From: Bolinopsis microptera
Taxonomy: Eukaryota; Ctenophora; Tentaculata; Lobata; Bolinopsidae
DNA length: 64,000 bases
Direction of reading: 5' to 3'
NCBI RefSeq assembly: GCF_026151205.1
Contig: NC_087083.1
Coordinates: forward strand, 7,790,460 to 7,854,459
Below, piece after piece: positions 1,009-49,785 of the stretch. The translations under genes and the position numbers were made by a program. Positions within the stretch are counted from its first letter, which is position 1, and the number at the start of each line of letters is the position of its first letter. A model generated the notes under the pieces. That model made no database searches. It was not told the origin of the DNA and saw nothing but the letters and a program-made list of their open reading frames with translations.

Positions 1009-1246
1009 GCTCTATTGAGGCTGTTAAAACTTGTAAGAAATGACACTATGTTGACGATTGAAAGAAAATGTTCTAATTTGTACTGAAGATTGGAATTTGT
1101 CGTGATAATTCAGAATATTTTAATCTATTCTAACTAAAATTATTCAGCCAGCATTAAGATTATTTTGTAAAGAATAAAACTTGAATTCAAAAAAGGTTGA
1201 CGCTAGAACGGTTGCGATTACAATAATTTGACCTTGTTTCTATTTC

Positions 1247-1826
1247 AGCATGCTCCACTAGTAACCCTAACCACACTAGTTACCACACTAGTAACCACAC
1301 TAGTAACCACACTATTTCAGCATGCTCCACGTGCGCCTGCAACTAAGATAACCTCACCTTGTTTCTATAGTAACCACAGTAACCACAGTAACCACACTAG
1401 TAACCACACTATTTCAGCATGCTCCACGTGCGCCTGCAACTAAGATAACCTCACCTTGTTTCTATAGTAACCACAGTAACCACACTAGTAACCACACTAT
1501 TTCAGCATGCTCCACGTGCGCCTGCAACTAAGATAACCTCACCTTGTTTCTATAGTAACCACAGTAACCACAGTAACCACACTAGTAACCACACTATTTC
1601 AGCATGCTCCACGTGCGCCTGCAACTAAGATAACCTCACCTTGTTTCTATAGTAACCACAGTAACCACAGTAACCACACTAGTAACCACACTATTTCAGC
1701 ATGCTCCACGTGCGCCTGCAACTAAGATAACCACACCTTGTTTCTATAGTAACCACAGTAACCACAGTAACCACACTAGTAACCACACTATTTCAGCATG
1801 CTCCACGTGCGCCTGCAACTAAGATA
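1247..1826 (+). repeat. Minisatellite made of repeated 3' splice sites
   Basis: About six units of roughly 85-100 bp. Each holds ACTATTTCAG, the first bases of exon 1 (CATGCTCCACGTGCGCCTGC) and then CTAGTAACCACA-type filler. The last unit supplies the acceptor at 1796/1797; exon 1 continues where the repeat breaks off. Confidence 0.85.
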
Positions 1827-1945
1827 ACCTCTTACGAGCCTCCTGATCTGCGGGATGAGTCTCCACTACTGCGCGCATCACGTGATCTCTCCATGTCTAG
1901 AACCAGTATTGACGATCTGAGGAACAACAGGGCATCTACCCCCAG
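1797..1945 (+). CDS. CH gene, exon 1 (first seen)
   Basis: The acceptor TATTTCAG is the last of several tandem copies of the same acceptor. The frame starts HAPRAPATKITSYEPPDLR and ends STPR, with two bases of the Arg codon before GTTTGT. It is Arg/Ser/Asp-rich. Earlier exons must exist, because the frame is open at its 5' edge and has no usable start codon. Confidence 0.7.
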
Positions 1946-25900: not shown

Positions 25901-28900
25901 GAGCAATTAGTGTAGCTAAACCCTGCTACCAGAGCAATTAGTGTAGCTAAACCCTGCTACCAGAGCGATTAGTGTAGCTAAACCCTGCTACCAGAGCGAT
26001 TAGTGTAGCTAAACCCTGCTACCAGAGCGATTAGTGTAGCTAAACCCTGCTACCAGAGCAATTAGTGTAGCTAAACCCTGCTACCAGAGCAATTAGTGTA
26101 GCTAAACCCTGCTATCAGAGCGATTAGTGTAGCTAAACCCTGCTACCAGAGCGATTAGTGTAGCTAAACCCTGCTATCAGAGCAATTAGTGTAGCTAAAC
26201 CCTGCTACCAGAGCAATTAGTGTAGCTAAACCCTGCTACCAGAGCGATTAGTTAGCTGTTAGCCTATGTAACTATGGTAACAAGTGTTGTAACTATGGTA
26301 ACGATTAGTTAGCTGTTAGCCTGAACTAATACTGTTTATATGTTAACTTACACATTAGCTCTTAACTGTGCACCTCACTTTTTCAGCTGTGATTAATACT
26401 CTCAACGTAAGATAAATACGCTATCAATACGCTATCAATACGCTATTGCTCTATTGATTATCATTTATTTACTAATAACTATGTTTCAGCCTTCTAATGA
26501 GGAGGTGGCATGCAGGAGCGACGAAGAAGTGTCCGTATCTTCGTAAGTGGAACTCACTTATTTACTTTACATTAGTTTATTTACTTTACATTAGTTCATA
26601 TTTGAATGATAAAATATCAGGACGAATAAGGGAAACGAAAGGATTGAAAATAAAAAGGGAAAATATGAAATGTTAAAATTTTCAGGGGGAGTCTGCCCGA
26701 TGTGCACATGGAAGATCCTGCCATAAAAAAGGTGAGAGTTAAAATTCGTATCGTTAATTCTGAATAAGCATTTTTATATAAATATAATTACATAAGAATG
26801 GTAATTAGGTAATTTGGCAGGGAACTCAAGAGTCAAGATTAAGCACGGGTTACACTAGTAATTACATAGAATGAACACTAAGCTAACTCATTGTTCAGGA
26901 ACTGACAAAGTGGGCGAACTCAATGTTAAAAACTAAAGACTACGTGCCTGTCTTTTCTATACACGACTCAATGAAAGACGGCAGAACACTGGCCCAACTG
27001 CTTCATAGTATAGGTAATTAATTAATTAATTAATTATTATGGTTCAGTCGAATTATTTACTTTTCCATCTTATTAAACACAATATGATCGTTAAGAAAGT
27101 TGAAAATTCTTTCTCAACAACATTGTTTCTATGGTAACCATCTGTAATAGCATTTGTTAGGTGCTTTGTGTATTAACAATCTGTTTTCGCTCTTTTGAGT
27201 GGGTCGATCATATAATTGATGTTTTGGGACAAAGTGAGAGTCTCCACTCCGTTTTTCAAACGTATAGTTTTCAACTATTATCAACTATTTGTTTGAAAAA
27301 CTGAGTGGAGACTCTCACTTTGTCCCAAAACATCAAGTGTATTAATTGTTTGTTCACATTCAATAATTGCAACAGAAATATTTCATTGTTAACGTACGTA
27401 AATTTCAGCCGATGAACGTGTGTCAGACTTGAACAAAGACCCTAAACTTAGGGTAGAAATTCTACCAAACATCGACAAATGTTTAGCCTTCTCAAAGGTA
27501 ACTAGTAGTGTAACTGTGGTAACTAGTAGTGTAACTATGGTAACTAGTGTTTAGCCTTCTCAAAGGTGCGACTATTTTTAGGGTTTACTTTTGGCAGATT
27601 GTTTCAAGTAGTATGTGATATTATTTATATATTATACCTTATATAATACAAGGTGGAATTTGGAGCATCTGATTTTGGTTTAGTTTTAATTAAACTCGGA
27701 GTTTCTTTAGTTAAGTAAAGGAAATGAAAAACAAGTCACAAAGGAGATTATCATTTTCTCACATTTCAGCAACGAGACTTCTTGTCTGGTCAAACAATCC
27801 TCGTAGGGAAAGTAAATTTTTAGTGTGTCAAAATTAGTGTAACTATGGTAACTAGTAGTGTCAAAACGTTCCATTATTATACAATTATTGTACATTCATG
27901 TTCATTGTCCAAGATCAGTAAAACAACACTTGATTAATTCATGTACAGAGTATTAACAAAGTTATAAAAATTGTGTATGGTAAATGCGATCATACAGTTG
28001 TCCATGTAGAAACCTCGGTTAACATGACCTCACACTTCAAGCAGAGGGGTGAATAGTTACTCATGTTATCAAGCGAAATGGAAGTAAAATTTTAATTGTA
28101 AGCTTAATTGTTGGTTTACCCTGACTTGTAGTGTAATTATGGTAACTAGTAGTGTAATTATGGTAAGTGGTAACTAGTAGTGTAACTATGGTAACAAGTA
28201 GTGTAACTATGGTAACTAGTAGTGTAACTATGGTAACAAGTGTTGGTTTACCCTGACTTGACTTGTCCCCAGCAAAACAACCTGATGGTTGGCGACATTG
28301 CATCACGTGATATTGTAAAGGGGAACGAGCTGCAGATAACAATTCTTCTGGAACAACTCCGAGCCGCGCACAAGAGGAAATTAGAGGTTCGTTATCTGGA
28401 CTGTGTTAAACTGGAGTAGAACTTAGAAGCTTTAAACGATGGAAATCATTTATACTATTCATTAATGAGTTGACCAATTAATAAGTTAAATGATTTCTCA
28501 GCTTATAAGTTAGCTATTGAAAATCTTGGACCTCAAAAAATCGTTATGATCAATCTCTTCTAAATGGTCCCTAGAACATATCCTGAAAGTTTCAGGGTGA
28601 TTGCTCAAAAAATGTGGGAGAAGATAGATTTTTAGACTCGATTTTCAGAATTTGTGATTGAAAATCGCTCGCGCAATACAATTACACATAAGCGCTGCCC
28701 TTAGACCAGCGATAATTTCGGCCAGGAACAATATTTTTCCATGGGACCAAAAGCAGCTGATAGATATCACTCCCTTTTATCAGAAACAACTAAAAAGTCA
28801 ATTTCGAGAGAATTTTGATGAAGACCCTCACCCCCGGCCCCTTAATTAGTTAATTATTTAATACCTTAATTAGTTAAATATTTAATACCTTAATTAGTTA

Positions 28901-31900
28901 ATTATTTAATACCTTAATTAGTTAATTATTTAATACCTTAATTAGTTAATTGACCTGATCCTCAGAGTGGTGAAATGACCGAAGTAAGCAGTTATCAGGT
29001 GTTGTGTTGTTTTAATGTCATGTGATAATGTCTATACTCTACTGCAGTCGTATTATTAAACAGCGCATGTGTAAAACTGTAAACTATTAACGTATTCTAC
29101 AAGATTCGGGACTTCCTCACCATTACATACATACAATATACATGTTACCATGGTAACCTTACCATTAGCCGACGTGAATTCAAGACGTTTTGTCGGTGAT
29201 TTCCAATGTAATCTCCATATTTTCTGTCTTGTATCATGAATCATGATATTTATCAAACCATTTGGTTCGTTGTTACTTGAATTTCACATCAACACATTTG
29301 CATTTGTTTAATTATTTTTAATCGCCTTTGAATAATATAAACTGTCATTCATAAGTAAACATAATTAACTAGGATATTTTCAGCGACCGGCTGTACCTAA
29401 ACCAGATGAAAGTAAAGGTAAATCCTTATTTCCTTGTTTATAAAACTTATTTCAGTCAGTATTTTAATCGTATTTTAAATACTTAAGATTTCAATATTAT
29501 ATGTATCATTTTAGCACATGTATTTGTCTGACAATATATCCTTCTCACAGATCCACTACATACACCAAACCTGGCGAGTGCGTCTAATCACACCTTGTCT
29601 AGTCACACCTTGTCTAATCACACCTTGTCTAGTCACACCTTGTCTAATCACATGTCACTAGAGAATAACACAGATAAGCTGGTAACTAGTAGTGTAACTA
29701 TGGTAACAGATAAGCTGATATTGGGGCACCTAGATTGGAACTTATCACAAACTTGGCTCAAATATCTGGGTAAAGATTCATCATTTTAAATTTGGCATTT
29801 CATCAATTTATTAAATAACACATATTTTGTCTTCATTTCCCATAAAGGCTATTTCCCATCATCACTAATTTCCACATACGTCATTCATGGTCCTGAAATC
29901 TGAAAAATTGATACTTTTTCAAAATCTCTCACACGTTTGATTTTATCAAGAAAAAGTAAATATTATTAACAAGGAAATATCAGTGTCAGAAGCGGAGTAG
30001 TGTAACTATGGTAACTAGTAGTGTAACTATGGTAAATATGATTAACAAGGAAATATCAGTTTCAGAAGCGGAGCTGACGGACGAAGAGGGAGTTCTCCCG
30101 TTCAGAAGAAACAAGACAATGGCTGCTCCTCCTCGGTCTAAACGTTCTCAAAATCACACTTCATCTAGGTATAGATAATTAATTATCTTATTAGTTAAAT
30201 ATTTTAGATTACCTCTAATCCTCCTTTATCGATATCAACTAAATTAGACCTCCATTATTTTATATCCACTAAAACCAACTTTCTCGTTCACTTTGTGTAC
30301 TTCGTTAACTGATGATATATTTTCACTTTAGCTTTGTTAACACACAATACACTTTCTCTTTCAGTTTAGAGACAGGAGATTTTCGCTTTGTTAACACACA
30401 ATACACTTTCTCTTTCAGTTTAGAGACAGGAGATTTTCGCTTTGTTAACACACAATACACTTTCTCTTTCAGTTTAGAGACAGGAGACTTTCGCTTTGTT
30501 AACACACAATACACTTTCTCTTTCAGTTTAGAGACAAGCCTTTCGCTTTGTTAACACACAATACACTTTCTCTTTCAGTTTAGAGACAGGAGACTTTCGC
30601 TTTGTTAACACACAATACACTTTCTCTTTCAGTTTAGAGACAGGAGACTTTCGCTTTGTTAACACACAATACACTTTCTCTTTCAGTTTAGAGACAGGAG
30701 ATTTTCGCTTTGTTAACACGCAATATACTTTCTCTTTCAGTTTAGAGACAGGAGACTTTCGCTTTGACAACACACAATACACTTTCTCTTTCAGTTTAGA
30801 GACAGGAGACTTTCGCTTTGATAACACACGATACACTTTCTCTTTCAGTTTAGAGACAGGAGACTTTCGCTTTGACAACACACAATACACTTTCTCTTTC
30901 AGTTTAGAGACAGGAGACTTTCGCTTTGATAACACACGATACACTTTCTCTTTCAGTTTAGAGACAGGAGACTTTCGCTTTGTTAACACACACTTTCTCT
31001 TTCAGTTTAGAGACAGGAGACAAGCCTACAGATCAGATAGAGCGAATGTTATTACACACATTAAACACTCTCACACAACAGCTGAAGAGTAAAATAGACA
31101 AATCTGCAGTATATTCACTGTAAGTAACTATGGTAACTAGTAGTGTAACTATGGTAACTATGATTAACAAATCTGCAGTTTATTCACTGTAAGTTGTTAT
31201 GTGTTTTAAATACTCACTCTTATTGAATACCCTCACAATGGTCACGTGACGAGTTTCTTCATTTGAGGGTAATATTTTAGATTAGTAGATTTCTATTGAA
31301 TCCTTACAAACCCTCCTAGACACATAAAGGAAGAGTTAGACTCGCTAGCAGGAAATAACGCCCCGGAAGACTTCGCTCCTAACTCCATGACCGGGCCTCC
31401 CCCTCCTGGTTCTGACAACAACGCTATACCTGACTCAGTTAGTTACATCATTATCCTGCCCTCTTTTTTATTGTGCTGCAATTTGTTCAACTTTAATTTA
31501 TTATAACTTTTTCAAGAAGTACTCCTTCGTTTCCACTCACCGCTATACTATGATAATTCATACGACTGATTTTGATACAAACTTCTATATTTTGACTTTT
31601 ACTTAAATTTTTTAAAGGAAAGCTCATTGACTGACTTGGTAACTGAAAAACTGACTGAGAATACTAAATCTGAGTTGATAGCTGAGGGACTGACAGATAC
31701 TGACCAACTGACTGACCGTAAAACTGAGCAAATAATCCTACATTTTGCGGAAGTATTGTGTCCAGGAGTATGTTCTCCAGACGATACAGACAGATCCATA
31801 TCCCCCTACATGAGGCAATCTCCCTCGTTAAACTTAACACGTGACGTCACCACACCACGTGACGTCACCACACCACGTGACGTCATCACACCACGTGACG

Positions 31901-34900
31901 TCACCACACCACGTGACGTCACCACACCCCCTGTCTCGTCTCCAAACCCCGACATTCTCCCCAAGTACAGGACTCTTCCTCCTCGCCTGCGCAGTCCAGG
32001 AGTAAAGAAACGTGAGATGAAGATAAAGATAACGAGGAGAGTGAACAAGAGAGAGCCCACAAACTCCCTGCCCCGCTCAGTCAAACTGACGGAGTTTGCG
32101 GACCAGAATCCGGAGGTGATGGACAAACTCCGGGACATGGCATTCCCGGAAATGATCATGGAGCACACAAACGTGACAGTTAGACCTAGAAAGAGGAAAT
32201 CCCGGTCTAAACGGGGGAAGACGGCTCCCAGAGACCGGAGGAATAATGCTCCGGTCAGTCACGTGACCATGGTAACGGTCAGTCCACATGTTATAGAACC
32301 AGGATCTCTTGAGAAGGGGAGAGTTAGTGATTCTACTTTGGAGGCGGACAGTATACCATATCTCCATCATGATGAGGTAGAGTTACTCTCTCCTTCTTCT
32401 CTCACGCACGTCACCCCTCCTCCCTGTCACGTGACGTCACCAGGACAAGTGACGTCACCAGGATTTCTGCTCAACAAATACTACGAAATATTTGGAACCG
32501 AACTCCCGGCCAACTCCTCAGACAGTTGCCTGGAATACAAGGCCGGTATCTGTGATAAAAAGACACGTGACGTCACACCACGTGACGTCACATCGCCATG
32601 TGACGTCACTAGAGACAAGTGTTCACGTAAGAGCAAACTGACTGAGCAGTATATAGATGAGTTGGGGGGTTCTGTTAGCTGCGATCAGTGGATAAGTTGG
32701 GTCCTGTGTACTCACTACGATCTGGAGTGGGGAGCCGTGCAGGGACTGGCTCACCAGCTCCTTACAATTAATCCTAAATTTGCTGAGGTGAAAAACTAGA
32801 GTTCCTAATTCACTTATTGACTGATTGACTAAGATTAGTTACTTCTACTTGACTAACGATTCACTAAATTAGTTCTTTATAATTACTTAATGTAATGATA
32901 CTTTATATTTTACATCTTTATTTCTTCCTAGGAAATAACTGAAGCTCTGAAGAATTTGCGGTTCTTAGAAAGGAAACTGACGGAAATAGAAGAAAACTTA
33001 GTTCACGTTAGGAACGAGACCATACCTACGGTAAGAAAATTCTAGATTTTTTAATCAATAAATTAGTCAATTAGATAATAGTTCCAATTAAAAGTATTAT
33101 TTTTATGTATACTTTACCTCTCTCTTTACTTTTTCAATTAACTAACTAATGGTTTTCCCAGCTGGCGAAAAAAGGGATGGAGAAACCTAAGAAGAAAAAG
33201 AAAGGTAAATAAAATTATTTATAATAATGTGTTAAATATCTGTATAGTCTAAAGGCGTGATTAAAATAGCTTCAAACTTTCTTGAAAAGGTTCAAACGTG
33301 TTAAATTGGATCTCTGAAAGAAACTTTTAGCAAAAAAGATATGAAACAAAATCCTGCAAAGATAAAATCCATCAAGTTTTTGAAACAATTTTCTCACTCG
33401 TATGGTGGCTGATAAATTAGCTTTTAAACGCTGACCCGTAACAAATGTTGCTGACAAACTCTGTTTAATTAGTTTACAAAGTGTGCTGTGATTCCTTATG
33501 TAACCTAGTAACTCAAGTAACTATTTCATGACTAGTAATGCAGTGACTACTTGGTGACTAATAATGTAGTAACTATTTCATGACTAGAAATGCAGTGACT
33601 ACTTGGTGACTAATAATGTAGTAACTATTTCATGACTAGAAATGTAGTGACTACTTGGTGACTAATAATGTAGTGACTATTTCATGACTAGTAATGCAGT
33701 GACTACTTGGTGACTAATAATGTAGTAACTATTTCATGACTAGAAATGTAGTGACTACTTGGTGACTAATAATGTAGTGACTATTTCATGACTAGTAATG
33801 CAGTGACTACTTGGTGACTAATAATGTAGTGACTATTTCATGACTAGTAATGCAGTGACTACTTGGTGACTAATAATGTAGTGACTATTTCATGACTAGA
33901 AATGTAGTGATTACTTGATGACTAGTAATATAGTGACTACTTCATGATTTTTAATGTAGTGACTATTTCGTGATTTTAAATCAAAATGTCCGACTAAGAG
34001 CTGCAACCCAAAAGTAAACAAATTATTTATTTTCGGTTAAAAATAAATAACATACTTAAATATAAATAACATACTTAGCTATAAGTAACATACTTAGCTA
34101 TAAATAACATACTTAGCTATAAATAACATACTTAGCTATAAATAACATACTTAGCTATAAGTGGAATGATAATCATGGATAATGATAAAATTACTTTGAT
34201 TTAATTGTTAAGCGGGTCTTTATTTGCACCAACGATTCATTGTATCGATAACGAACGTGACATCACGTTATGTGTAACATGACGTCACGTTATGTGTAAC
34301 GCGTGATAACGTCGTGAGACTGTGTTTGATTTAAGAAAAGTTTCATTGCTTCTGAAGTAGCTATCAGTTCGCCGGTCATTGTTGGGTATAATACTCAAAT
34401 GTTTTATTGTGTTCATTTTAGGTGCACTATAACGCAGTACTACTACAGTGTACAGGGGTAGGTGAGGTGTGAGATAGGCATGTGTATTTATTAAATAGTA
34501 TCAGTTATACTATTAAGTAAATAGTATTTATTATACTACTTAATTGATAGTATTATTTATGCTATTTATACACATTTAATGAGCACGATTCTATTGAATA
34601 GATTATTTAATGCTTGCACTGCACAACAAATTAGTGATTACTTCCCTAGTTTCAAAATTTTATTACTGATATGTCGATTAACAAATTAATTAATTGAAAT
34701 TAACATTTGATTAATCAAATATTTGAAATAAAGTGACTTAATCTGATTGTTTAGTTCCTAGGGAAGCTGAGAGTTCGGTTTAACCTCCCACTTAAAGCTT
34801 TTGTCAGTCCCTTGTAAAGGTAGAACCTTAGTGAGAGTATCCGTTATGTTTATTTTGGGTACTGTCATTTTTTATCTTGTAATTTTCTTACCATGTGATT

Positions 34901-37900
34901 TTCGTAAATTATAAACTCCTGTTTTATTTGGGTCGTGAAGCTTTGTCGTGTTTAATTTATGTTTAATTTATACCGTTCCTTGCACGAGACCTTATACTGT
35001 AAAATAAAATATACGGTAAATATATTAGTTATAATATAAAAAGTTTTGTGTGATTACTTGCACGTGATGTTAAATCAATATTCTGCTGAGATTCATTCTG
35101 AAAATCTATCAAAGTTTCTTTATCTAATACTATATTAATACTGTTATATGATACTATCTTACTATCTTAATACTGTTGCAACGCTCCAATACACCCACTT
35201 TACTTCCATTAAAACAAGTTGTCTTTCCTAACAAGCTGTGATGCTCTAAACACTAAAATCTTTCCTAATCTTACTAAGTTTGGGTTTAGATTAGTCATTA
35301 ATATGATCATTTTTATTGAAGCACTCTCGAGACATCTTTTTAACCTTTATACCTTTATTATAACGATTACATGTAATTTAAATGTTTGTTAAAAGCATTG
35401 TATTTCCAAAGCACTGTAGACCCTGGTCATTAGGAAATGTTTCTAATGACCAGGGTCTGTAACCGGTTTTCACTAGGTCATTAGCTACTGCATAGCAATG
35501 ATATAGGGGTGTCGATAATGGAACGCAGTTTTAAATCATAAGGGTGCCGATCATAGAGTGAAATTTAAAATAATCATTTAAATCACACGTACTGAAGTAC
35601 TGAAGTACTGATTACTCACACGTACTGATTTACGTGACTCAGTAAAGAGGCTCATAAATACAGCTCCTTCATAAATACAGCTCTAATATCTCCCACGTAG
35701 TTTCAACAATTAAAATATCATTTTCTCAATATAACCCGACAACATATTCTTATGTTTGGCCTTTAATTTACAATTGATCAAACAACAAAAGCTATTGTGA
35801 GCGCTAATCGGCTAATGATTCATCCCGCTTTGCTATAATGTAGTATTATAATGTAGTATAGCATGATTTGTTAGAAAGATCTAGTCAAAAAGCCGATCAA
35901 CATTAAGTTGAGAAATCATTGCATTCATTACCGCTGAATTCTAGCAAAGCATTTTATTCGCGATGAACGTGCAAACCTAACATGCGACATATTGCACGTG
36001 CAAACCTAACATGCGACATATTGCACGTGCAAACCTAACATGCGACATTTTGCACGTGCAAACCTAACATGCGACATATTGCACGTGCAAACCTAACATG
36101 CGCCACGTGTTTTATGCGCTGCTTGTAAGTTGTACAGTGTACACTGTTGAAGGTGCAATGTGTGCTGTATGTAGATTGTAGAAACTGTTGCACGTGTATA
36201 ACACGTGTATAACACGTGTATAACACGTGATAAGACGTGTATAACGACACCCCTATATCTTGCAGGGGCAGGAAGCGTATTGGGGTGCCTTACTCCGCGG
36301 AATCCCACGCCGGTAGATGACTGAGAGATTACGTGACTGTTAAATCACGCGTTACACATAACGTGACGTCACGTTCGTAGACAGAGAGTTCACGTGACGT
36401 AACAGAATAATCAGAACATGGGGTTAGGGGCTGGGAAGTCTTTAGTCAAACTGTCTTACTTGAACTGATGTGGTTGTGTTTATTGCATGTGTGTGGGTAT
36501 GTAACTGTAACATTGTACTATGTATATACTATATAGTATTAGTAATTATGTTAGATTTGTTGTTGTTTGTTGGAATGGAGGGTTAACTGAACAAGTGGAG
36601 ACTTACTTAATCAGTTACGGGTAATTAGGTGTAATTACGGGTAATTAGGTGTAATTATGTGTAATTACAGGTAATTAGGTGTAATTAACACTGGAAATAC
36701 TACATATATAATACTAGTACTACTTATCATCTCCACTGCTAGTTAATTAACCCTTGATTCTGGAAATGACATGGAACTGTTTTTAGTCGCGGGTTAAGTT
36801 TAATGTATTGAATTTTGTTGTGATAAGATAATTTAACATGTAGATAATTGTAATTTCAATATTTCATGTTCTTGTTCACGAACCTAAAAACTGGTTTGCC
36901 GGGCCTGCCCCGGAACTTTAACACACGTTGACAATTTATTAATTTAGTTGCTCGCAGTTTCGTTAAAGTCAGGTTGTTAAGTAACACTAGCAGATTCGTT
37001 AAAGTCAGGTTGTTAAGCAACACTAGCTGTCACGTCTCTCAAAAAGTTGTTTTGAATTAGTGCGCTTACTATTTAATTGTGCGAATAATTTTATTTTTGA
37101 AGATATAATTGAAAAAGTTCTTTTTGTTGATTACACCTGAATAAATACTTAAGGGATGCTATGATGTTTTTAATTTTTCAATCGGATGATTTTTGTTTTT
37201 GGATTGGATGTGAGATGAATAGTGAAAATAGTGACTATGGTAACTAGTAGTGTAACTATGGTAACTATTGGATGTGAGATGAATAGTGACAATAGTGACT
37301 TGTTTATCCGATATTGTGGAGCTTTGAAATAGAAGTTAGCATTTGTAAACTTATATTTAATTCTAAGTGAAATTTGCCTTTTGATTTTTGTACGTCGCTG
37401 TATGCTAAGATGTTGATACTTCATCAAGATCATTTCATGGCCTCATTTTTTTACTCGTTAATCAGTGAAGCATATTTTTGATTTTCCAACTTTCGTCGTT
37501 TGGGAGAATCTAAATAGGACATGTACAAAGAGATAATAAGTGTTTAACGAAATATTTCACCTTCAATTGCGTTCACACTAATTTTTATTTCATAATGATT
37601 AGAATATTTTTATTGGAGGGCTTCAGTACACGTCCGCCGGGTGGAGAGCAATCTCTATAAAAAACTGTGGGAAACATTTTGAGTTAAGCAATTATTTTGA
37701 TGTTGAAAATTTGCTGGATGATGACTTACTGACTTAAGTCGGCTTCTTGGTCCGAGCAACTACAATTCCTCGCCACACGTCGCGGTCAAGCATAACAGAT
37801 CTTATCTCTTCAACACAGGAAAGGCTGGTGTCCTTCTTTAGCATGTCCAGAAACGTAAGGTGGGGCCTCCCCGGTCTCCTGTATCCATGCTGAGGGTCCC

Positions 37901-39354
37901 AGAACAGAAGTTGGTTTGCCAGAAGGTCGTCATGCCTGGCTACATGTCCAGCCAGTCTCATTCTTCTGGAGGCTATCATCGCTGATGGCTTGGGGATGTT
38001 GCCGTATAAATCACTGTTGTTGATGATTTGTGGCCAACGTATGTTCAAGGCCATCCGGAGCATTCTAGTGTAGCATCCATTGCTGGATGATACAGTAGTA
38101 GTAGTACAGACAATTTGCACTTATGAGAGTGTATTCCTTAATGATGAGCATAGAAATAAAGTGGCTTAAAAACTTAATCAGTGTTTTAGCCGAGGAAAAG
38201 TGTTAAGAAAAAAAAGAAGATTTTTCCTGTTTTTATGTAGTTTTTACAGACAATACAGTGCTTCTATCTCAACAAACTTGATTGAAGATAATGTGTAATT
38301 CTAATAATGCAGCCGAAGTTTTTATTTATTTTATGAATTACGACTATTTTATTTGTCCACTAAGTTACACTGTAAAGTAACCTGAGGTAAGAATAATAAA
38401 AGAAAACACGCGATTCGTTATTATACACGGGACCATTATCACAGCTCAATAAGTATTCCGAGCTTAAACTATAATTTCTTATACAGTGGTTTTCAAGAAA
38501 CTCAATCATCACTTACTGATAATCTATATAAGTATTTGAACTGTAAATGATGGAGACATTAGACAATTATTCAATTACTTTGATTAGTAAAAATGATTGT
38601 TTTTAGAAAAAGACAGGGAGAGTAACCGTGAGTATTGCGTGTTGACCTCCGATTGTTTTCCATTTACCAATTTCATAAATTCTCTTGATTTTATCTTTAA
38701 TCAAGTTCTTGCTGTTTCTAAAACGCATTTCAGATTTTATGCTATAGCTTGTGCGATTTATGTCATTTTCACGAAAATTTCATTAACTTGCTTTTTAGAG
38801 ACTAAAATTCTTTAGACTTCAAGTCTCTTCAGAAGATGATAGCATACTTAGCCTAGATTGCTATGTTTGCCTCCTGATTACATTCTATGAATCTTATCTA
38901 GCATACTTTAATCAGTAGTGCAATCGAGGAAAATATACTAGGATTTTATTTTTAAATATATTAGTAAAAAATAAAGTCCTCGTCTATAATAATATATGTT
39001 CTCATTTCTCAATTGTACTACTGAATGCAGTAGCACTAGTAATGTTCAATGATTCAAGATTTCATACAAATCAGTATTTTCACAGAGTAATCCTCTTATT
39101 GTTAGTGTGCACAATGTGTCTTTATTATTCTATTATTTATTCTTGTAAATTAATTATAATTCTTTACCCCAGGTCTGAGTGGTATGTTTAGGAGTAAGGA
39201 CTCTAGCAGTAAAGACTCCCTTTCTAATCTGAAGAGCGCTAACTCAGTAGCGAGCATTAACAGCATTAACAGCCTGTCAGACAGTGGACTAGCTTCAGTT
39301 GGGGGCGGTCCCCCCGGCTCTGTGACTAACGAGAAGGCAAATATAGTCACGTGA
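1797..39354 (+). CDS. Large multi-exon CH-domain protein gene (5'-incomplete)
   Basis: A chain of 24 exons, each bounded by AG/GT and consistent in phase, gives one open frame of about 1,550 codons. In order it encodes a basic Ser/Arg region, two heptad-repeat blocks (exon 3), an RD/RS-rich middle, a calponin-homology domain over exons 13-15, a short helix likely to form a coiled coil (exon 19), a long Ser/Thr/Pro-rich exon (21) and a Lys-rich tail. CH hallmarks are LTKWANSML, DSMKDGRTLAQLLHSI, NIDKCLAF and DIVKGNELQITILLEQL. CH domains bind actin or microtubule-linked partners, so a cytoskeletal role is inferred. The CH looks closest to single, neuron-navigator-like domains, but no orthologue could be named. 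No start codon was identified, so upstream exons are missing. Exons are listed separately below. The exon model is my own reading and has no transcript support. Confidence 0.8.
2105..3525. repeat. G-tract minisatellite 2
   Basis: About 45 copies of TACTGTGCTGACTATAATAG followed by T and a variable G-run. It shares the core TACTGTGCTGAC with array 1 but carries a different spacer, so the two arrays are diverged relatives on either side of exon 1. Confidence 0.9.
3526..3622. repeat. 13-bp array ATGTTGTAATCAC
   Basis: Seven near-identical copies at the edge of the G-tract array. Confidence 0.9.
3882..3919 (+). CDS. CH gene, exon 2
   Basis: A 38-nt exon between CCTGTTTCAG and GTACGT. It joins exon 1 in phase to read SSASRPDNKRPIR and leaves one base that exon 3 completes. 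Short and basic. Confidence 0.65.
3920..4679. other. Intron 2, little structure
   Basis: It contains a short run of TTAATAATGACTGTTAAC-like repeats (3958-4032) and otherwise unique AT-rich DNA. No further exon is supported. Confidence 0.5.
4680..5205. repeat. 50-bp array before exon 3
   Basis: About 10.5 copies, each with CCAGAACGATAATAAATTG and a CCCCCTACCCCCCTAA block, differing by a few bases. It ends 47 bp before exon 3, and a short CACTACTAGTTACCATGG motif of the GTAAC family follows. Confidence 0.9.
5253..6479 (+). CDS. CH gene, exon 3 with two heptad-repeat blocks
   Basis: A 1,227-nt exon after ACCCTCCCAG, ending at GTGAGT. It encodes a basic leader, ten copies of SRESPHK (5461-5690), a linker, then about fourteen copies of EEHSPEN and variants (5866-6165), and an end containing KAFAFVIDGSDMDMTPIKKK. 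Both repeat units are exactly 21 bp. One block is basic and the other very acidic, so the two could attract each other; this is inference. No globular fold is expected. Long open frames on the opposite strand come only from the repeats. Confidence 0.85.
6908..6992. repeat. ACTAGTAACCAC 12-bp array
   Basis: Seven copies of ACTAGTAACCAC in the intron before exon 4. It is the same word as in the arrays at 1247 and 9648, which links these to the GTAAC family. Confidence 0.85.
7018..7124 (+). CDS. CH gene, exon 4
   Basis: The acceptor CCTCTCAG and donor GTACGT fit. The exon completes a Tyr codon with exon 3 and reads KGPKGSALYGQPTWWGEEED, ending IVQSQR. It is followed directly by a 9-bp tandem array that starts within the donor region. 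Confidence 0.8.
7126..7482. repeat. 9-bp array ACTCCTTAC
   Basis: About 38 copies of ACTCCTTAC with TATTT variants, beginning at the exon 4 donor. Long open frames here are repeat artefacts. Confidence 0.92.
7999..8163. mobile_element. 149-bp hAT-like MITE
   Basis: Terminal inverted repeat CAGGGACAAAAGGA (8007) and TCCTTTTGTCCCTG (8142), flanked by the 8-bp direct repeat GGTGGGGG on both sides. An eight-base target duplication is typical of hAT transposons. The flank is G-rich, so the duplication could be partly by chance. Confidence 0.65.
8579..8844. repeat. 7-bp array GGATACA
   Basis: About 38 almost perfect copies. It is open in all three + frames and several - frames, so the overlapping ORFs have no meaning. 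Confidence 0.95.
9648..9780. repeat. CACTAGTTACCA array
   Basis: About ten copies of CACTAGTTACCA, with CAGTAGTGTCACTAGTTACC inserts. Related to the GTAAC family. Confidence 0.9.
9914..10270. mobile_element. 341-bp GC-rich hAT-like MITE
   Basis: The ends CAGTAATCGACCG and CGGTCGTTTACTG are inverted repeats, flanked by the 8-bp direct repeat TAGAGAGT at 9914 and 10263. The interior is full of CCCCGGCC motifs, unlike the AT-rich surroundings. It has no coding capacity. Confidence 0.8.
10271..10535. other. Intron 4, AT-rich, no feature
   Basis: Unique AT-rich intron DNA without exon or repeat signals. Confidence 0.5.
10538..10793. repeat. 23-bp array TTCGGATGTGGAAATTTGTC
   Basis: Eleven copies of a 23-bp unit, with TTC/TTT variants. 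The array is open in all three + frames because the unit lacks stops. Confidence 0.92.
10820..13150. other. Long intron stretch, mostly unique
   Basis: AT-rich sequence with a two-copy duplication around CCCTAATTACACACTAAATG (11160-11280) and a doubled ATTTATATTTACAACAACG (11780-11825). Some GC-richer DNA at 12000-13000 resembles transposon sequence, but I saw no ends. No exon is supported. Confidence 0.45.
13159..13412. repeat. AACACTATAGCAGTAGAACT array
   Basis: Seven to eight units of AACACTATAGCAGTAGAACT with AGTTGCTATAGC or AGCATTGTAGCT ends. Confidence 0.85.
13632..13717. repeat. CCAAT-containing repeat, cluster 1
   Basis: Copies of AACCAATCAGAGAGCTGTAT followed by TCTAGTCACGTGA. The unit includes a CCAAT box and a CACGTG E-box. 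The same unit recurs at 15537 and 16858. Confidence 0.8.
14165..14712. repeat. 47-bp array
   Basis: About eleven copies of a unit holding CTTATACACCAATAAAATAG and TGTAGTGTCGTAATTATTTT. Confidence 0.92.
15372..15421. repeat. Two palindromic CAGGGGCACGCCCCTG units
   Basis: CAGGGGCACGCCCCTG is a near-perfect inverted repeat that occurs twice, 24 bp apart. It could form stable hairpins. Confidence 0.75.
15537..15612. repeat. CCAAT-containing repeat, cluster 2
   Basis: Two copies of AACCAATCAGAGAGCTGTAT with TCACGTGA or TCACGCGA, as in cluster 1. Confidence 0.8.
15886..16712. repeat. 19-bp palindrome-rich array
   Basis: About 43 copies of GTAAACTATACACTGTACA with GG/AG variants. Adjoining units form perfect palindromes such as TGTACAGTGTACA, and two units near 16262-16300 are inverted (CAGTTTACTGTACA). 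Confidence 0.93.
16858..17048. repeat. CCAAT-containing repeat, cluster 3
   Basis: Five units of about 40 bp with AACCAATCAGAGAGCTGTAT and TCACGCAATACAAATT. Here CACGTG is changed to CACGCA. Confidence 0.85.
17060..17600. other. Intron end before exon 5
   Basis: Unique AT-rich DNA followed by GC-richer sequence around 17490-17580. Possibly part of an old transposon, but no ends were recognised. Confidence 0.4.
17609..17793 (+). CDS. CH gene, exon 5
   Basis: After CTTTCTTAG the phase-0 frame reads RTPRHSHSTEFDPFDGYSD, then repeated DN/RGD-type motifs (RDNGHRGDRDNGYRGDRDNG), and ends before GTAAAC. The acceptor two bases downstream would give an early stop, which supports this start. The preceding intron is about 10.5 kb. 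Confidence 0.8.
18015..18185. repeat. TG-rich microsatellite
   Basis: GTGTGA, GTATGA and GTGTATTGTGTATGTAAT units in an intron. Confidence 0.85.
18395..18480. repeat. G-run inverted repeat
   Basis: A run of G and GGTTCAC is followed by inverted TGAACCCCCCTCCC and CCTTAATTAAGAGGGGGG. A likely hairpin or remnant of a G-capped element like that at 21226. Confidence 0.55.
18765..18932. repeat. About 54-bp AT array
   Basis: Three to four copies of GTGATATTATATATAATGTG with AGTGTGTAATATATAATA. Confidence 0.8.
18933..19479. other. Intron 5 end, no gene
   Basis: Unique sequence. The phrase GGGTTACACTAGTAATAAC at 19285 has close relatives at 21184 and 26848, each a few hundred bp from an exon. Confidence 0.5.
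19480..19587 (+). CDS. CH gene, exon 6
   Basis: Bounded by ATTTCTCAG and GTACTG. It reads SYNGNHGNHDSPARPTSGFY and ends YDRNTDR. It contains the duplicated GGTAACCAT motif, related to the dispersed GTAAC family, as coding sequence (NGNHGNH). Confidence 0.8.
19715..19766 (+). CDS. CH gene, exon 7
   Basis: A 52-nt exon between TTGTCAG and GTGAGT. It reads SYPPVEERRNNRNPPQP and ends in phase 0. Confidence 0.75.
19767..20431. other. Intron 7, no exon supported
   Basis: A 107-codon open frame at 19794 lacks coding character and splice support. The GC-rich CGCGC block at 20175-20225 suggests an old mobile element. Confidence 0.45.
20432..20531 (+). CDS. CH gene, exon 8
   Basis: Bounded by TAATTTCAG and GTAAAT. 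It reads RFEERVYTPPPSKPGMAFQI then TFDEPKSSSPRHP. The phrase MAFQITFDEP resembles KAFAFVIDGSD in exon 3 and may be a repeated short linear motif. Confidence 0.8.
20556..20974. repeat. 34-bp C-rich array
   Basis: About 12 copies of CTCTTCCTACACCCCTGGTG plus GGGCCCCTGCCCC in intron 8. CACCCCTGGTG is partly self-complementary. The overlapping open frames are repeat products. Confidence 0.92.
21054..21159 (+). CDS. CH gene, exon 9
   Basis: Acceptor CTCGCAG, donor GTTCGA (weak). It reads GKKKKGTPPKPDNENDKKSN and ends SRKSVDSNR. The basic KKKKG stretch could act as a nuclear-import or acidic-surface-binding patch; this is not proven. Confidence 0.75.
21219..21572. mobile_element. G-capped inverted-repeat element
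   Basis: Ends: a run of G then TCATGAGTATTTTGAGA on the left, and TCTCAAAAATACTCATGA then a run of C on the right. Inner copies of GAAAATGCCAAATTCTCA are direct and inverted. TTGTTAG flanks both sides (21219, 21566). About 340 bp, non-coding, in intron 9. Confidence 0.7.
21700..21820 (+). CDS. CH gene, exon 10
   Basis: Acceptor TTATGTCAG, donor GTAAAA. It reads SSEKQFDRRSDKNSDRHSDK and ends IDDIELSLPDE. It carries a repeated SDK/GSD motif. An acceptor at 21890 could add a short alternative end ATPGPPQPFNSM followed by a stop. Confidence 0.75.
21950..22194. repeat. (ACT)n/AGTAAT array, part 1
   Basis: Units of about 54-66 bp: an (ACT)n run, CAGTAATAGTAATAGTAATA and GTAGTAACTATACTAATC. Interrupted by a LINE fragment at 22196-22415; part 2 follows. 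Confidence 0.92.
22196..22415 (-). mobile_element. LINE 3' fragment inserted in the ACT array
   Basis: The - strand encodes a reverse-transcriptase C-terminal tail (ELVANRLLLWEPTHGVRSRG, RPAMTYVDSL, DRVLWRQRI) like the one at 37.7 kb. The 3' end carries a short GACTT/CAAGT repeat tail. The array continues on both sides, so the element inserted into a pre-existing array. 5'-truncated and inactive. Confidence 0.75.
22418..23262. repeat. (ACT)n/AGTAAT array, part 2
   Basis: About 14 units as in part 1. The frame reads as Tyr/Ser/Asn on + and Val/Ile/Thr on -, both meaningless. Confidence 0.92.
23477..26250. repeat. 31-bp satellite of about 89 copies
   Basis: Unit GTAGCTAAACCCTGCTACCA plus GAGCNATTAGT, almost without gaps over 2.77 kb. 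Units differ mainly at one position (GCTATT, GCGATT, GCAATT) and in TACC/TATC. Runs of identical variants point to local amplification. One unit near 24799 holds a short extra duplication. Confidence 0.96.
26245..26322. repeat. GTAAC-family insertion (a)
   Basis: A perfect 21-bp direct repeat beginning CGATTAGTTAGCTGTTAGCC lies at 26245-26265 and 26302-26322. Between them sit two GTAACTATGGTAAC words. The left copy starts in the last satellite unit. Confidence 0.85.
26490..26542 (+). CDS. CH gene, exon 11
   Basis: A 53-nt exon between ATGTTTCAG and GTAAGT. It reads PSNEEVACRSDEEVSVSS. It is acidic and lies just upstream of the CH domain, after the 2.8-kb satellite intron. Confidence 0.75.
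26686..26731 (+). CDS. CH gene, exon 12
   Basis: A 46-nt exon between TTTTCAG and GTGAGA. It reads GSLPDVHMEDPAIKK and leads directly into the CH domain. Confidence 0.75.
26899..27013 (+). CDS. CH gene, exon 13: CH domain, helices A-C
   Basis: Acceptor TTGTTCAG, donor GTAATT, phase 0 in and phase 1 out. It reads ELTKWANSMLKTKDYVPVFS then IHDSMKDGRTLAQLLHSI. The Trp of the first helix and the DGxxLxxLL core are the standard CH signature. Confidence 0.88.
27216..27336. mobile_element. 121-bp hairpin MITE in the CH-domain intron
   Basis: Arms of 46 bp (27216-27261 and 27291-27336), starting TTGATGTTTTGGGACAAAGT, with a single mismatch and a 29-bp loop. Probably a foldback mini-transposon; transcripts would form a long hairpin. 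Confidence 0.8.
27409..27497 (+). CDS. CH gene, exon 14: CH domain, middle
   Basis: Acceptor AAATTTCAG. It reads ADERVSDLNKDPKLRVEILP then NIDKCLAFSK and ends before GTAACT. The donor belongs to an inserted GTAAC-family repeat; the original exon end is duplicated at 27548-27567. Reading through the repeat would hit TAG, so the first donor is preferred. Confidence 0.85.
27480..27567. repeat. GTAAC-family insertion (b) at exon 14 end
   Basis: A perfect 20-bp direct repeat TGTTTAGCCTTCTCAAAGGT at 27480-27499 and 27548-27567 flanks three GTAACT-type words. The repeat contains the last 18 bases of exon 14 plus GT of the donor. Confidence 0.88.
27770..27811 (+). CDS. Possible optional 42-nt exon in the CH domain
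   Basis: Bounded by ACATTTCAG and GTAAAT, phase 0 on both sides, reading QRDFLSGQTILVGK. It could be inserted between exons 14 and 15 without breaking the frame. Without it the CH domain aligns naturally (CLAFSK followed by QNNLMVGDI), so it is either an alternative exon that disturbs the fold or a chance pairing of splice sites. Confidence 0.35.
27825..27866. repeat. GTAAC-family insertion (c)
   Basis: The 9-bp direct repeat GTGTCAAAA flanks GTAACTATGGTAACTAGTAG, shortly after the optional exon. Confidence 0.65.
28109..28260. repeat. GTAAC-family insertion (d)
   Basis: A perfect 20-bp direct repeat TGTTGGTTTACCCTGACTTG flanks about 112 bp of GTAACTATGG/GTAACTAGTAGT repeats. The right copy lies 12 bp before exon 15. 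Confidence 0.88.
28273..28386 (+). CDS. CH gene, exon 15: CH domain, last helices
   Basis: Acceptor TGTCCCCAG, donor GTTCGT, 38 codons in phase 0. It reads QNNLMVGDIASRDIVKGNEL then QITILLEQLRAAHKRKLE. The DIVxGN...L..L pattern matches the final helix of CH domains. Confidence 0.86.
28387..28844. other. Intron after exon 15, no gene
   Basis: Unique DNA. A 63-codon frame at 28658 has no splice or start support. Confidence 0.45.
28845..28950. repeat. ACCTTAATTAGTTAATTATTTAAT array
   Basis: Four to five copies of ACCTTAATTAGTTAATTATT with short ends. Confidence 0.85.
29384..29417 (+). CDS. CH gene, exon 16
   Basis: A 34-nt exon between ATATTTTCAG and GTAAAT. It reads RPAVPKPDESK and leaves one base. 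Confidence 0.7.
29551..29769 (+). CDS. CH gene, exon 17 with in-frame GTAAC insertion
   Basis: Acceptor CTTCTCACAG. It reads DPLHTPNLAS, then a 15-bp coding repeat (SNHTL/SSHTL), then SLENNTDKL. A 36-bp insertion of the GTAAC family with a duplicated ACAGATAAGCTG follows and stays in frame as VTSSVTMVTDKL, after which ILGHLDWNLSQTWLKYL ends at GTAAAG in phase 1. Only this longer exon joins exon 18 in frame; a shorter form ending at 29681 would give an early stop. Confidence 0.65.
29670..29717 (+). repeat. GTAAC-family insertion (e), coding
   Basis: The 12-bp repeat ACAGATAAGCTG flanks GTAACTAGTAGTGTAACTAT. The net insertion is 36 bp, within the open frame of exon 17. Confidence 0.8.
29956..30073 (+). 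repeat. GTAAC-family insertion (f) at exon 18 start
   Basis: A 42-bp direct repeat (29956-29997, 30032-30073) with two mismatches holds ATTAACAAGGAAATATCAG and the first bases of exon 18. The GTAACTATGGTAACTAGTAG filler lies between. In the upstream copy the frame ends in TAG. Confidence 0.88.
30066..30168 (+). CDS. CH gene, exon 18
   Basis: The acceptor TATCAGTTTCAG offers two sites six bases apart (30060 or 30066), both in frame. It reads EAELTDEEGVLPFRRNKTMA then APPRSKRSQNHTSSR before GTATAG. The acceptor region and first exon bases are duplicated 76 bp upstream, where the frame would end in TAG. Confidence 0.72.
30340..31005 (+). repeat. 54-bp array of 3' splice sites before exon 19
   Basis: About 12 copies of a 54-bp unit with ACACTTTCTCTTTCAG followed by TTTAGAGACAGGAGA, the start of exon 19. 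One copy (30510-30540) is shortened and carries GACAAGCC of the exon. The last unit lacks five bases, so only the final acceptor feeds the correct frame. Confidence 0.9.
31006..31119 (+). CDS. CH gene, exon 19 (helix, predicted coiled coil)
   Basis: Uses the last acceptor of a 54-bp tandem array, CTCTTTCAG. It reads SLETGDKPTDQIERMLLHTL then NTLTQQLKSKIDKSAVYS before GTAAGT. The spacing of Leu and Ile suggests a coiled coil. The donor end is duplicated about 70 bp downstream. Confidence 0.8.
31098..31194 (+). repeat. GTAAC-family insertion (g) at exon 19 end
   Basis: A 28-bp repeat at 31098-31125 and 31167-31194, one mismatch, covers AAATCTGCAGTATATTCACT and the donor GTAAGT. The GTAACTATGGTAACTAGTAG filler lies between, so two donors are present. 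Confidence 0.88.
31320..31437 (+). CDS. CH gene, exon 20
   Basis: Acceptor ACCCTCCTAG, donor GTTAGT. It reads LHIKEELDSLAGNNAPEDFA then PNSMTGPPPPGSDNNAIPDS. It continues the helix of exon 19 and then becomes Pro-rich. Confidence 0.78.
31618..32787 (+). CDS. CH gene, exon 21 (390 codons)
   Basis: Acceptor TTTTTAAAG, donor GTGAAA, phase 0 on both ends. An acidic start (ESSLTDLVTEKLTENTKSEL) is followed by five DVTTPR-type units (31840-31925), basic segments, a second block of DVT repeats (32560-32615) and a more folded-looking end with WISWVLCTHYDLEWGAVQGL then AHQLLTINPKFAE. That last part is hydrophobic and helix-like and could be a small domain of unknown type. Confidence 0.85.
32252..32284 (+). 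repeat. Possible GTAAC-family insertion in exon 21
   Basis: CGGTCAGTC occurs at 32252-32260 and 32276-32284 around ACGTGACCATGGTAA. The net gain is 24 bp, in frame (HVTMVTVS). Confidence 0.5.
32932..33030 (+). CDS. CH gene, exon 22
   Basis: Acceptor TTCTTCCTAG, donor GTAAGA, 33 codons in phase 0. It reads EITEALKNLRFLERKLTEIE then ENLVHVRNETIPT, a likely amphipathic helix. Confidence 0.8.
33162..33204 (+). CDS. CH gene, exon 23
   Basis: Acceptor TTTTCCCAG, donor GTAAAT. It reads LAKKGMEKPKKKKK and leaves one base. The Lys-rich end could interact with tubulin or other acidic surfaces; this is inference. Confidence 0.75.
33533..33965. repeat. About 54-bp array
   Basis: Eight units of TAGTGACTACTTGGTGACTA plus ATAATGTAGTAACTATTTCA in the intron before the last exon. 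Confidence 0.9.
34036..34160. repeat. 19-bp array ACATACTTAGCTATAAATA
   Basis: Six to seven copies. Confidence 0.88.
34422..34432 (+). CDS. Possible short alternative last exon
   Basis: A good acceptor (TTGTGTTCATTTTAG) is followed in phase by GAL and a TAA stop. AATAAA sequences follow at about 34730 and 35000. This would end the protein soon after the Lys-rich stretch, as an alternative to the exon at 39173. Confidence 0.35.
34433..35417. other. Possible 3' UTR, then AT-rich intron
   Basis: Holds the AATAAA words that could serve the short alternative end. Otherwise AT-rich and without an exon signal. Confidence 0.4.
35418..35458. repeat. Perfect 16-bp hairpin
   Basis: AGACCCTGGTCATTAG and its exact complement are separated by 9 bp. 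Probably the closed end of a foldback element. Confidence 0.7.
35965..36105. repeat. 29-bp array with CACGTGCAAACCTAACATGC
   Basis: Five copies of GTGCAAACCTAACATGCGAC plus ATATTGCAC. Shorter CACGTGTATAA repeats follow at 36190-36240. Confidence 0.88.
36330..36400. repeat. GTTACACATAACGTGACGTC, inverted to 34240-34315
   Basis: The stretch CGTTACACATAACGTGACGT is the reverse complement of sequence near 34290. The pair could be ends of a 2.1-kb element or two fragments of one repeat family. Confidence 0.45.
36615..36690. repeat. GGTGTAATTACGGGTAATTA array
   Basis: Four short units. A two-copy repeat with GTTAAAGTCAGGTTGTTAAG follows at 36960-37026. Confidence 0.75.
37203..37300. repeat. GTAAC-family insertion (h)
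   Basis: A 34-bp direct repeat beginning ATTGGATGTGAGATGAATAG, one mismatch, at 37203-37236 and 37267-37300. GTAACTAGTAGTGTAACTAT lies between. No exon is nearby, so the process is not restricted to splice sites. Confidence 0.88.
37711..38091 (-). mobile_element. 5'-truncated LINE fragment with target duplication
   Basis: The 12-bp direct repeat TTGCTGGATGAT flanks 357 bp. The - strand encodes a typical LINE C-terminal tail (RMLRMALNIRWPQIIN, RRMRLAGHVARH, GYRRPGRPHLTFLDML, DRDVWRGIV). It ends in a short CAGTAAGTC tail, not poly-A. Related to the fragment at 22.2 kb. Confidence 0.85.
38092..39172. other. Intron before exon 24, no repeat
   Basis: Unique AT-rich DNA. An in-phase acceptor at 38606 would give EKDRESNREYCVLTSDC, but no coding character follows. 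Confidence 0.4.
39173..39354 (+). CDS. CH gene, exon 24 (terminal)
   Basis: Acceptor TTTACCCCAG joins exon 23 in phase. It reads GLSGMFRSKDSSSKDSLSNL, then a Ser/Asn-rich stretch, and ends EKANIVT with TGA at 39352-39354. A donor GTGAAG at 39351 would remove the stop and link to 39614. Confidence 0.75.
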
Positions 39355-39613
39355 AGGTGAGGGTCTTAGTGTTATCCACCATTATATGTTAACAATTAAC
39401 ATATCCTTATCATACTCAGTACCTAATATCTGTGACTTAACCTTATCAATTATCATACTGGGATGGTCTGATTTTCTATAAGTATAGTTATTTGTTTTTT
39501 CAGTTTCATGAAAGTAGTCATTTCTAATTTATAGTTTATTGGCATATTATTTAGTTGATTGGCTGTTTAATAAATTTAAACAACCTAGTTTCTGAATTAT
39601 AACTTATTTTCAG

Positions 39614-39737
39614 ATTTGGGAAAAAAGAAATCAGAAGGAGTAATTCTCTACAGAACGTGAGAGCCAGTAAATACAAACCGCTCCTAGTCCCACTTAATCT
39701 AGAAGCAGGGCATAGTCCTGCTGCTAACTGCTGCTAA
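39614..39737 (+). CDS. Alternative last exon of the CH gene
   Basis: If exon 24 is cut at 39350, acceptor TTATTTTCAG at 39613 continues the frame as TFGKKEIRRSNSLQNVRASK and ends AGHSPAANCC with TAA. The RRSNSL stretch looks like a kinase or 14-3-3 type site. Its last codons come from the CTGCTAACTG tandem repeat. Confidence 0.5.
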
Positions 39738-40727
39738 CTGCTACTAGTTACACTAGTACTCATCTTTATCAGTTTCACGGAGTGCGCGGCTCAAATATCG
39801 TGCGTATATTGGAGTGTGCGGCTCAAATATCGTGCGTATATTGCACGTGTCTCGCAAAACTAAGTTAAACTACACCACTTATGCTGACTACTGTAAACTT
39901 TAATAGAACTATTAGATATTAGTAGTTTTTAGTGACGCATGATTATCTTGTTAATGAGTATACAGACTTGATATTGTCAATTAATCATCATAATCATATT
40001 ATGTGCAATGTGTCAATCAAACTTGTTGTCGATTTACAATTCACAAATCTCATATCTTGAGGTTTGAAATCTTCACATTTATGATTTAAGTTTTTAATCG
40101 TGTTAAATAGTTAACTTTTTCTTATATTATGACAAAATGATAAATGGAGATTGTTGCATGTTGAATAACTATGGTAACTAGTAGTGTAACTATGGTAACT
40201 AGTAGTGTAACTATGGTAACTAGTAGGAATATACTGAATATATATATATAGTATTGAACAATACTGACTCTCTAAGACAATATTGGTTTCATTTTGACTA
40301 TTTTCTTATTTTTGACAGCTGGTATGTGTTACACAGATATAATTGCCACATTGGTGGGAACCTCCATGATTTTCAAATTTCTTGGCTAAATGTTGAGATA
40401 ATAACCGATGTAGATTTTGTCATACGTTGTATGACCCGCCTGTAGCGTCGAAGACGCTACTATAGTGAAGCGACCGTGGGGGTCACCACGTGATACAATG
40501 TGGATTGTAGGCAGCATTATCTCAATATTTAGTCAATATCTTCAGACTCGTAATCGTGTTGTTATTATTGTTCGGTTTTTGTTGTTCAGTAAATACTGTA
40601 GTACATTTTTGATCATTGTTCTTGGAAATCTTCTCTACTAATTATACATTGTAGTTATAACTTATAACTTATAACTTATAACTATTACTGCTGAAAGTCG
40701 ATCGTTATTATTATATTTTACTGGGCG
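39738..40727. other. Region after the CH gene
   Basis: Duplicated CGGCTCAAATATCGTGCGTA (39785-39840) and the GTAAC copy; the rest is unique AT-rich DNA. A 63-codon frame at 40254 is unsupported. Confidence 0.45.
40165..40226. repeat. GTAAC-family copy (i) without clear flank repeat
   Basis: Three GTAACTATGGTAACTAGTAG words. Only a weak GAATA match flanks them. Confidence 0.75.
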
Positions 40728-46441: not shown

Positions 46442-46479
<38 letters not shown>

Positions 46480-49214: not shown

Positions 49215-49785
49215 GATTACATACATTTTGTCCTAGAAAATCTGATTTTATCGGAGTCTTATACTTTTGAGAAAATTTAATGTTGTTCATTCATTGTGTA
49301 AATTTGTATGTAATTGATCGATTTGAAAGATTTCAATAAAAAAATTGTGTCCAATTAATGGTTAGGTCTCCAAACTCAGAAAACACGTTTTTTGCCCGTA
49401 AGAGCCTCTTCTATAATAAAACACGAACAAACTTAACTATAGCTGCAGTACTGAAAACAACGACCAGGAGGATGAAAATAACCCAAGCAGTAAGTCAGTG
49501 AGTGCCCACATTCTAGCCATACAAATTTAAACACAATTAGCCATTTTGATTTATTGTTATTAGAAATATTACCACTAAAAAGGATGCGAGTATAAACTTA
49601 TGAAGAGAATGCACATAGCAACGGTAACATAGCAACGGTAACAGAAAGATTAGGGAACTATTCCGTTATTGGTATGTGGGCCTAATGTTTAACATATTAC
49701 TTCCTACCTACCTTATACTTTGATCGAGTTGTACTTCATGATCATATCAATCACTCAACAAGAACAAAATTAGATTTTGGTGTTG
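49215..49785. other. No gene seen
   Basis: Unique AT-rich DNA with a doubled CATAGCAACGGTAA at 49615-49640. Confidence 0.45.

Follow-up and report, generated by a model that had tools for sequence, protein, structure and literature searches.

Short arrays of a 21-bp repeat, apparently placed between duplicated host DNA during break repair, are found throughout the genome of Bolinopsis microptera

Arrays and Genes in the Window

In the window, i.e., the whole stretch of 64,000 nucleotides of Bolinopsis microptera DNA that was analyzed, tandem repeats mask 27% of the sequence, and very large minisatellites occupy positions 142-3506 (34-bp G-rich unit) and 23487-26257 (31-bp unit, about 89 copies). 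Of four open reading frames (ORFs) submitted to Pfam analysis, one encodes a reverse transcriptase/RNase H, one an anoctamin fragment and one a sulfotransferase, whereas the last has no family; no relative of the sulfotransferase was found among solved structures. The reverse transcriptase/RNase H ORF, located on the minus strand at 46444-49216, is followed on its 3′ side by 30 consecutive T (46444-46473) and is a poly-A type element. An inverted repeat at 27210-27342 (60-nt arms, 92% complementary, 13-nt spacer) lies in an intron-like stretch. Also, an array of AGTCACGTGAGAGTCCCCACA at 5466-5685 carries a 24-bp flanking direct repeat and is perhaps a second inserted family. Another array at 31838-31928, inside an ORF, is related to the unit CACGTGACGTCATCACAC; at a sampled locus (L022:9203-9397), a direct duplication of about 50 bp surrounds an array of this different unit.

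A sequence-only reading of the region had described a short dispersed element, eight copies of which were bounded by direct duplications of host DNA. All eight duplications were recovered where this reading had placed them, five exact and three near-exact (1-2 differences), and the distance between paired target copies ranged from 24 to 112 bp. The exact target copies, all on the plus strand with the array in between, are 26245-26265 and 26302-26322 (insertion 1, 21/21), 27480-27499 and 27548-27567 (insertion 2, 20/20), 27825-27833 and 27858-27866 (insertion 3, 9/9), 28109-28128 and 28241-28260 (insertion 4, 20/20), and 29670-29681 and 29706-29717 (insertion 5, 12/12, array at 29682-29705). 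The near-exact ones, with the same strand and arrangement, are 29956-29997 and 30032-30073 (insertion 6, 40/42), 31098-31125 and 31167-31194 (insertion 7, 27/28), and 37203-37236 and 37267-37300 (insertion 8, 33/34). A further plus-strand array of 2.9 units at 40166-40226 has flanks that share GAATA only, a weak 5-bp likeness. The repetition itself is real, with 16 matches of GTAACTATGG (shuffle mean 0.24) and 13 of GTAACTAGTAGT (shuffle mean 0.02) on both strands of the window. What had been called an element, however, has no fixed sequence: it is a run, variable in length and found genome-wide, of a 21-bp minisatellite unit composed of 12 + 9 bp. A likeness by description only is offered by an unplaced scaffold of Mnemiopsis leidyi, which PMC11797021 presents as a tandem repeat of an 18-bp unit, also with GTTAC.

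Some of the targets touch putative splice sites, as judged by inspection. The target of insertion 2 comprises the last bases of an open frame and a GT, and the array start would read as a donor-like AAAG/GTAACT. The target of insertion 6 covers an acceptor-like stretch, and that of insertion 7 has a donor-like GTAAGT at its end. In insertion 5, the array and one target copy lengthen an open stretch, a predicted exon, by 36 bp without shifting the frame.

Genome-Wide Distribution and Sampling

The 22-mer GTAACTAGTAGTGTAACTATGG has 630 + 635 exact matches (1265) in the 264.65-Mb genome (232 contigs), the reversed control giving 0. Among the matches listed (of the 1265), 98 of 100 are located within the initial 0.93 Mb of contig C1 (26.2 Mb); pattern searches found sites on all 13 large contigs, which measure 15-26 Mb, as well as on C16, C17, and C40. 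The long sample comprised 20 stretches of 10 kb, 16 of them on C1 and picked for the 22-mer, and four adjoining the window. The right-side sample (80 stretches of 700-900 bp) and the left-side sample (28 stretches of 400-520 bp) were picked by patterns fixing the right and the left side of the array, respectively. Nearly all loci were selected for carrying the motif, and duplication rates are therefore given per sampled array.

Duplication of Host DNA Around the Arrays

An ungapped direct repeat scoring at least 10 flanks 106 of 180 arrays, higher-order repeats included. Among 1923 mismatched pairs of flanks taken from different loci, 15 reach this score, and some of the 15 derive from segmentally duplicated loci. 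These 180 arrays, each of at least 20 bp, come from the window and loci L009-L108, and the remaining 74 score below 10. The flanks are far better than random; the opposite outcome was the one that the sequence-only reading had named as fatal to its proposal. Tandem arrays of other sequence reach the same score in 8/307 cases, vs. 10/45 for arrays of the motif and 4/2660 for mismatched pairs; four of these eight have GTTAC/GTAAC-like units, two contain CACGTGA, and two have neither.

At a score of at least 12, distinct events were obtained by removing 43 tandem rows, 9 array-containing rows and 1 duplicate, which left 44 distinct insertions, with 83 arrays below the threshold. De-duplication varied with the analysis, two others reducing 66 rows to 51 and to 60. 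In the 44 insertions, target copies measure 12-79 bp (median 19, the value of 12 being about the search floor) and inserts 19-399 bp (median 47.5).

This spread of target lengths, without any fixed insert length, agrees with the earlier claim that the duplications are too variable for a cut-and-paste transposon, and the absence of terminal inverted repeats was likewise upheld for the array insertions. A cut-and-paste transposon was rejected as a candidate on constant duplication length and on defined termini, left phases being about random (see below). The sequence-only reading had also considered an introner-like unit, for which the target contexts hold one favorable feature: splice-donor-like GTAAG occurs seven times in the array sense, within 6 of the 44 contexts, and never antisense, against background counts of 18 and 16 in eight times as much sequence. 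An introner-like or cut-and-paste element is nevertheless extremely improbable, since neither terminal inverted repeats nor a fixed length are present and the range of target copies is wide; some earlier-described introner families have target duplications of 3-9 bp according to PMC9860276. The introner-like reading of the unit found no support: one copy (29682-29705) lies inside an open stretch, in frame, inserts go down to 19 bp, and by inspection the unit seems devoid of a polypyrimidine tract. Also, 28 of 36 neighboring array pairs have the same strand. This sharing and the GTAAG bias could each reflect transcription-linked breaks or, equally, microhomology between the unit and splice donors.

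Empty Site and Fate of the Insertions

Loci L012 and L014 are paralogous stretches. L014 carries an 81-bp insert between 22-bp target copies (L014:615-691), and L012 has the same flanks, a single target copy and no insert. Since L012 holds one target copy, the direct repeat at L014 is a target duplication made with the insertion. A search with joined flanks gave one clean empty site among the matches listed, many of the others being matches to the array alone.

Inserted arrays later change in length and are amplified. At the paralogous loci L067 and L068, a single insertion is represented by inserts of 98 and 191 bp, and the single array of L058 is found at L059 with array and flank doubled. 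At L010, L014, L018, and L019, host DNA and array units have been amplified together with spacings of about 50-150 bp. The minisatellites at L018:1795-2740 (period 54) and L019:7478-8087 (period 53) combine host DNA with a GTAAC unit, and each apparently grew from one insertion. Arrays amplified, doubled or resized at paralogous loci thus indicate that insertions can seed minisatellites.

Junctions and Phase of the Array Ends

Microhomology is present at both junctions. On the left, where 23 of 44 insertions have a direct junction, the register of the array extends a mean of 2.83 bases into the target, compared with 0.50 when targets are exchanged (largest of 2000 permutations, 1.35). On the right, the mean is 2.06 bases (32 of 44 insertions) and the permuted mean 0.44 (largest of 2000, 1.00). 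The other junctions of the 44 insertions show extra non-array bases or altered units. Base composition at the target edges of these insertions revealed no strong preference and no endonuclease target consensus.

Such junctions are what would be expected of DNA-templated alternative end joining of the polymerase-theta type, in which overhangs are filled and a break end copies part of an existing GTAAC array via microhomology. The extra bases at some junctions and the common strand of neighbors also speak for it, and small tandem duplications are a documented outcome when break ends are filled (PMC8355091). We regard this explanation as a serious contender, nearly as likely as RNA-templated synthesis. 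Against it, rare unit variants are common to 4/32 neighboring pairs (at two loci) vs. 83/1508 distant pairs, and local templating is therefore not supported by these variants. End joining by itself predicts neither a one-sided register nor that, of the many tandem arrays, one family should predominate.

The register of the array ends was examined by phase. In an initial test with a uniform null, which omitted that the search patterns fix the phases of short arrays, the best block of six phases held 22/30 right ends and 20/47 left ends. With a later null that retains those restrictions, in the window and the 10-kb stretches, 20 of 28 right ends fall in the best block (null 12.0, p < 0.0001); for left ends the count is 14/28 (p = 0.13). 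A second left-end count gave 23/55 (p = 0.25). When only arrays of 43 bp or more are considered, on which locus choice cannot bind, 12/17 right ends (null 8.1, p = 0.006) and 11/30 left ends (p = 0.98) are in the best block. Short left ends are mildly clustered (9/14, p = 0.035), and in the window alone 6/8 right ends are in the best block, which is not significant (p = 0.07). The right-end preference survives control for locus choice but is weaker, and left phases are not clearly distinguishable from random, apart from the mild clustering of short ends. The preferred right end falls directly after TATGGTAA, within the next C, T, A, G, T. When array exits are simply counted over the genome (48, 69, and 62), the phase preference is not visible, and we think that internal unit variants confound these counts.

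This asymmetry bears on the possibility that circles or fragments of satellite DNA, once excised from arrays, were integrated. Short arrays are indeed scattered genome-wide, and satellite dispersal is a theme of the literature; yet such fragments should act alike at both ends, and the clear phase preference is on the right only, which makes their integration very unlikely.

A variable target duplication, a free left end and a preferred right end also recall target-primed reverse transcription. The arrays could in this case be the 3′ tails of an extremely 5′-truncated non-LTR retrotransposon, or of a short element that depends on the enzyme of such a retrotransposon. When the flanks of the window and loci L009-L108 were compared after masking, which was needed as unmasked flanks contained other arrays, no element body was found, the matches being paralogous stretches and a few scattered repeats. 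The lack of a body common to the array flanks in the compared loci and of a strong base consensus at the target edges renders the retrotransposon tail quite unlikely; moreover, the reverse transcriptase ORF of the window is followed on its own strand by a poly-A type run and not by an array of the 21-bp unit.

Origin of the Insertions

Filler added during the repair of staggered breaks, one of the proposals of the sequence-only reading, is supported as far as insertion with target duplication is concerned, with variable target length, microhomology on both sides and one empty site. Plain filler is insufficient because one repeat family predominates (8/307 vs. 10/45) and the right ends favor a single register. 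Arrays whose terminus is favored on just one side and free on the other point to primed synthesis from a template register; if arbitrary stretches of DNA arrays were copied, such an asymmetry would not arise. Our leading, still tentative explanation is thus that the arrays are break-repair insertions of the minisatellite unit, whose synthesis at staggered breaks would be primed and start at a favored register of the template. We infer staggered nicks, an RNA template and a reverse transcriptase.

According to this scheme, two nicks roughly 10-80 bp apart would expose overhangs. The right-hand 3′ end of the bottom strand (relative to GTAACTAGTAGTGTAACTATG) would pair over a few nucleotides with a unit-bearing template, and would be extended from the preferred register, around TATGGTAACTAG, by one to many units. 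The new strand would then join the left end by microhomology, and filling of the overhangs would duplicate the target. Afterwards, the array may change in unit number, or array and duplicated host DNA may be amplified into a minisatellite.

Primed synthesis is in line with the flanking repeats (106/180 vs. 15/1923), the empty site with its one target copy, the in-register bases at target edges, the right-end phases, the lack of a common body and the family preference. Telomerase, besides, is known to insert TTAGGG at breaks with in-register nucleotides (PMC2246262). Several observations fit it less well. The template RNA and the enzyme are both postulated, and the 21-bp unit would not be expected from ordinary telomerase copying its usual template, TTAGGG being present separately. 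The phase signal is weaker under the restricted null, with mildly clustered short left ends and p = 0.07 in the window alone. The strand sharing of neighbors (28/36) would be unexpected of a genome-wide RNA without a link to transcription or microhomology. Also, a duplication scoring at least 12 is absent from 83 of the 127 arrays that are not higher-order, and the empty site is a single one.

For primed synthesis, the template suggested by the right-end register and the free left end is an RNA, and the enzyme copying it a reverse transcriptase of the telomerase-like or target-primed kind. A more specific version, which we consider rather unlikely, is a telomerase-like ribonucleoprotein that does not make telomeres and whose template of about 21 nt plus an alignment stretch would extend the 3′ ends of staggered breaks genome-wide, including in genes, with a target duplication at every event and, potentially, a new minisatellite as the outcome.

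The insertions constitute a readable record of the healing of germ-line breaks in an animal, and they outline in concrete terms how a break can lead to a short array and this, in turn, to a minisatellite. Should the template be RNA, they would reveal a reverse transcription system for break healing that is distinct from telomere synthesis.

Comparison With Known Systems

No earlier report of minisatellite insertion between target duplications was found in the open-licence literature. Target-primed reverse transcription of non-LTR elements gives a variable target duplication, a preferred 3′ end and a free 5′ end. The present arrays are similar in their variable target duplication, preferred right end and free left end, and differ in that neither an element body nor a strong target consensus was found.

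In rice, patch-mediated repair reportedly yields duplications of tens of bp that are ascribed to the filling of staggered ends. The small tandem duplications from filled break ends in PMC8355091 are likewise of tens of bp and ascribed to staggered-end filling; unlike here, no recurrent insert between the copies is described in the abstract. The satellite-like arrays carried by oyster Helentrons are also short and scattered through the genome; according to the title of PMC7492417 they ride a mobile element, whereas the arrays of B. microptera are bare, between target duplications.

The interstitial telomeric sequences of primates and rodents, as described in PMC2246262, are similar in being short arrays at breaks, with in-register nucleotides and some target duplication. 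There, one or more in-register nucleotides are seen at 67-80% of informative loci, duplications accompany 6/130 rodent and 4/25 primate loci, and deletions about half. The unit differs, being 21 bp here and not TTAGGG. In the B. microptera genome, four tandem copies of TTAGGG have 2242 + 2031 matches (4273, overlaps counted), the 100 matches listed being interstitial on C1, and TTAGGG is presumably the telomeric repeat; four sampled contig ends, which are not true chromosome ends, hold by eye neither TTAGGG nor the 21-bp unit. Since TTAGGG exists separately, synthesis of the 21-bp unit would need another template.
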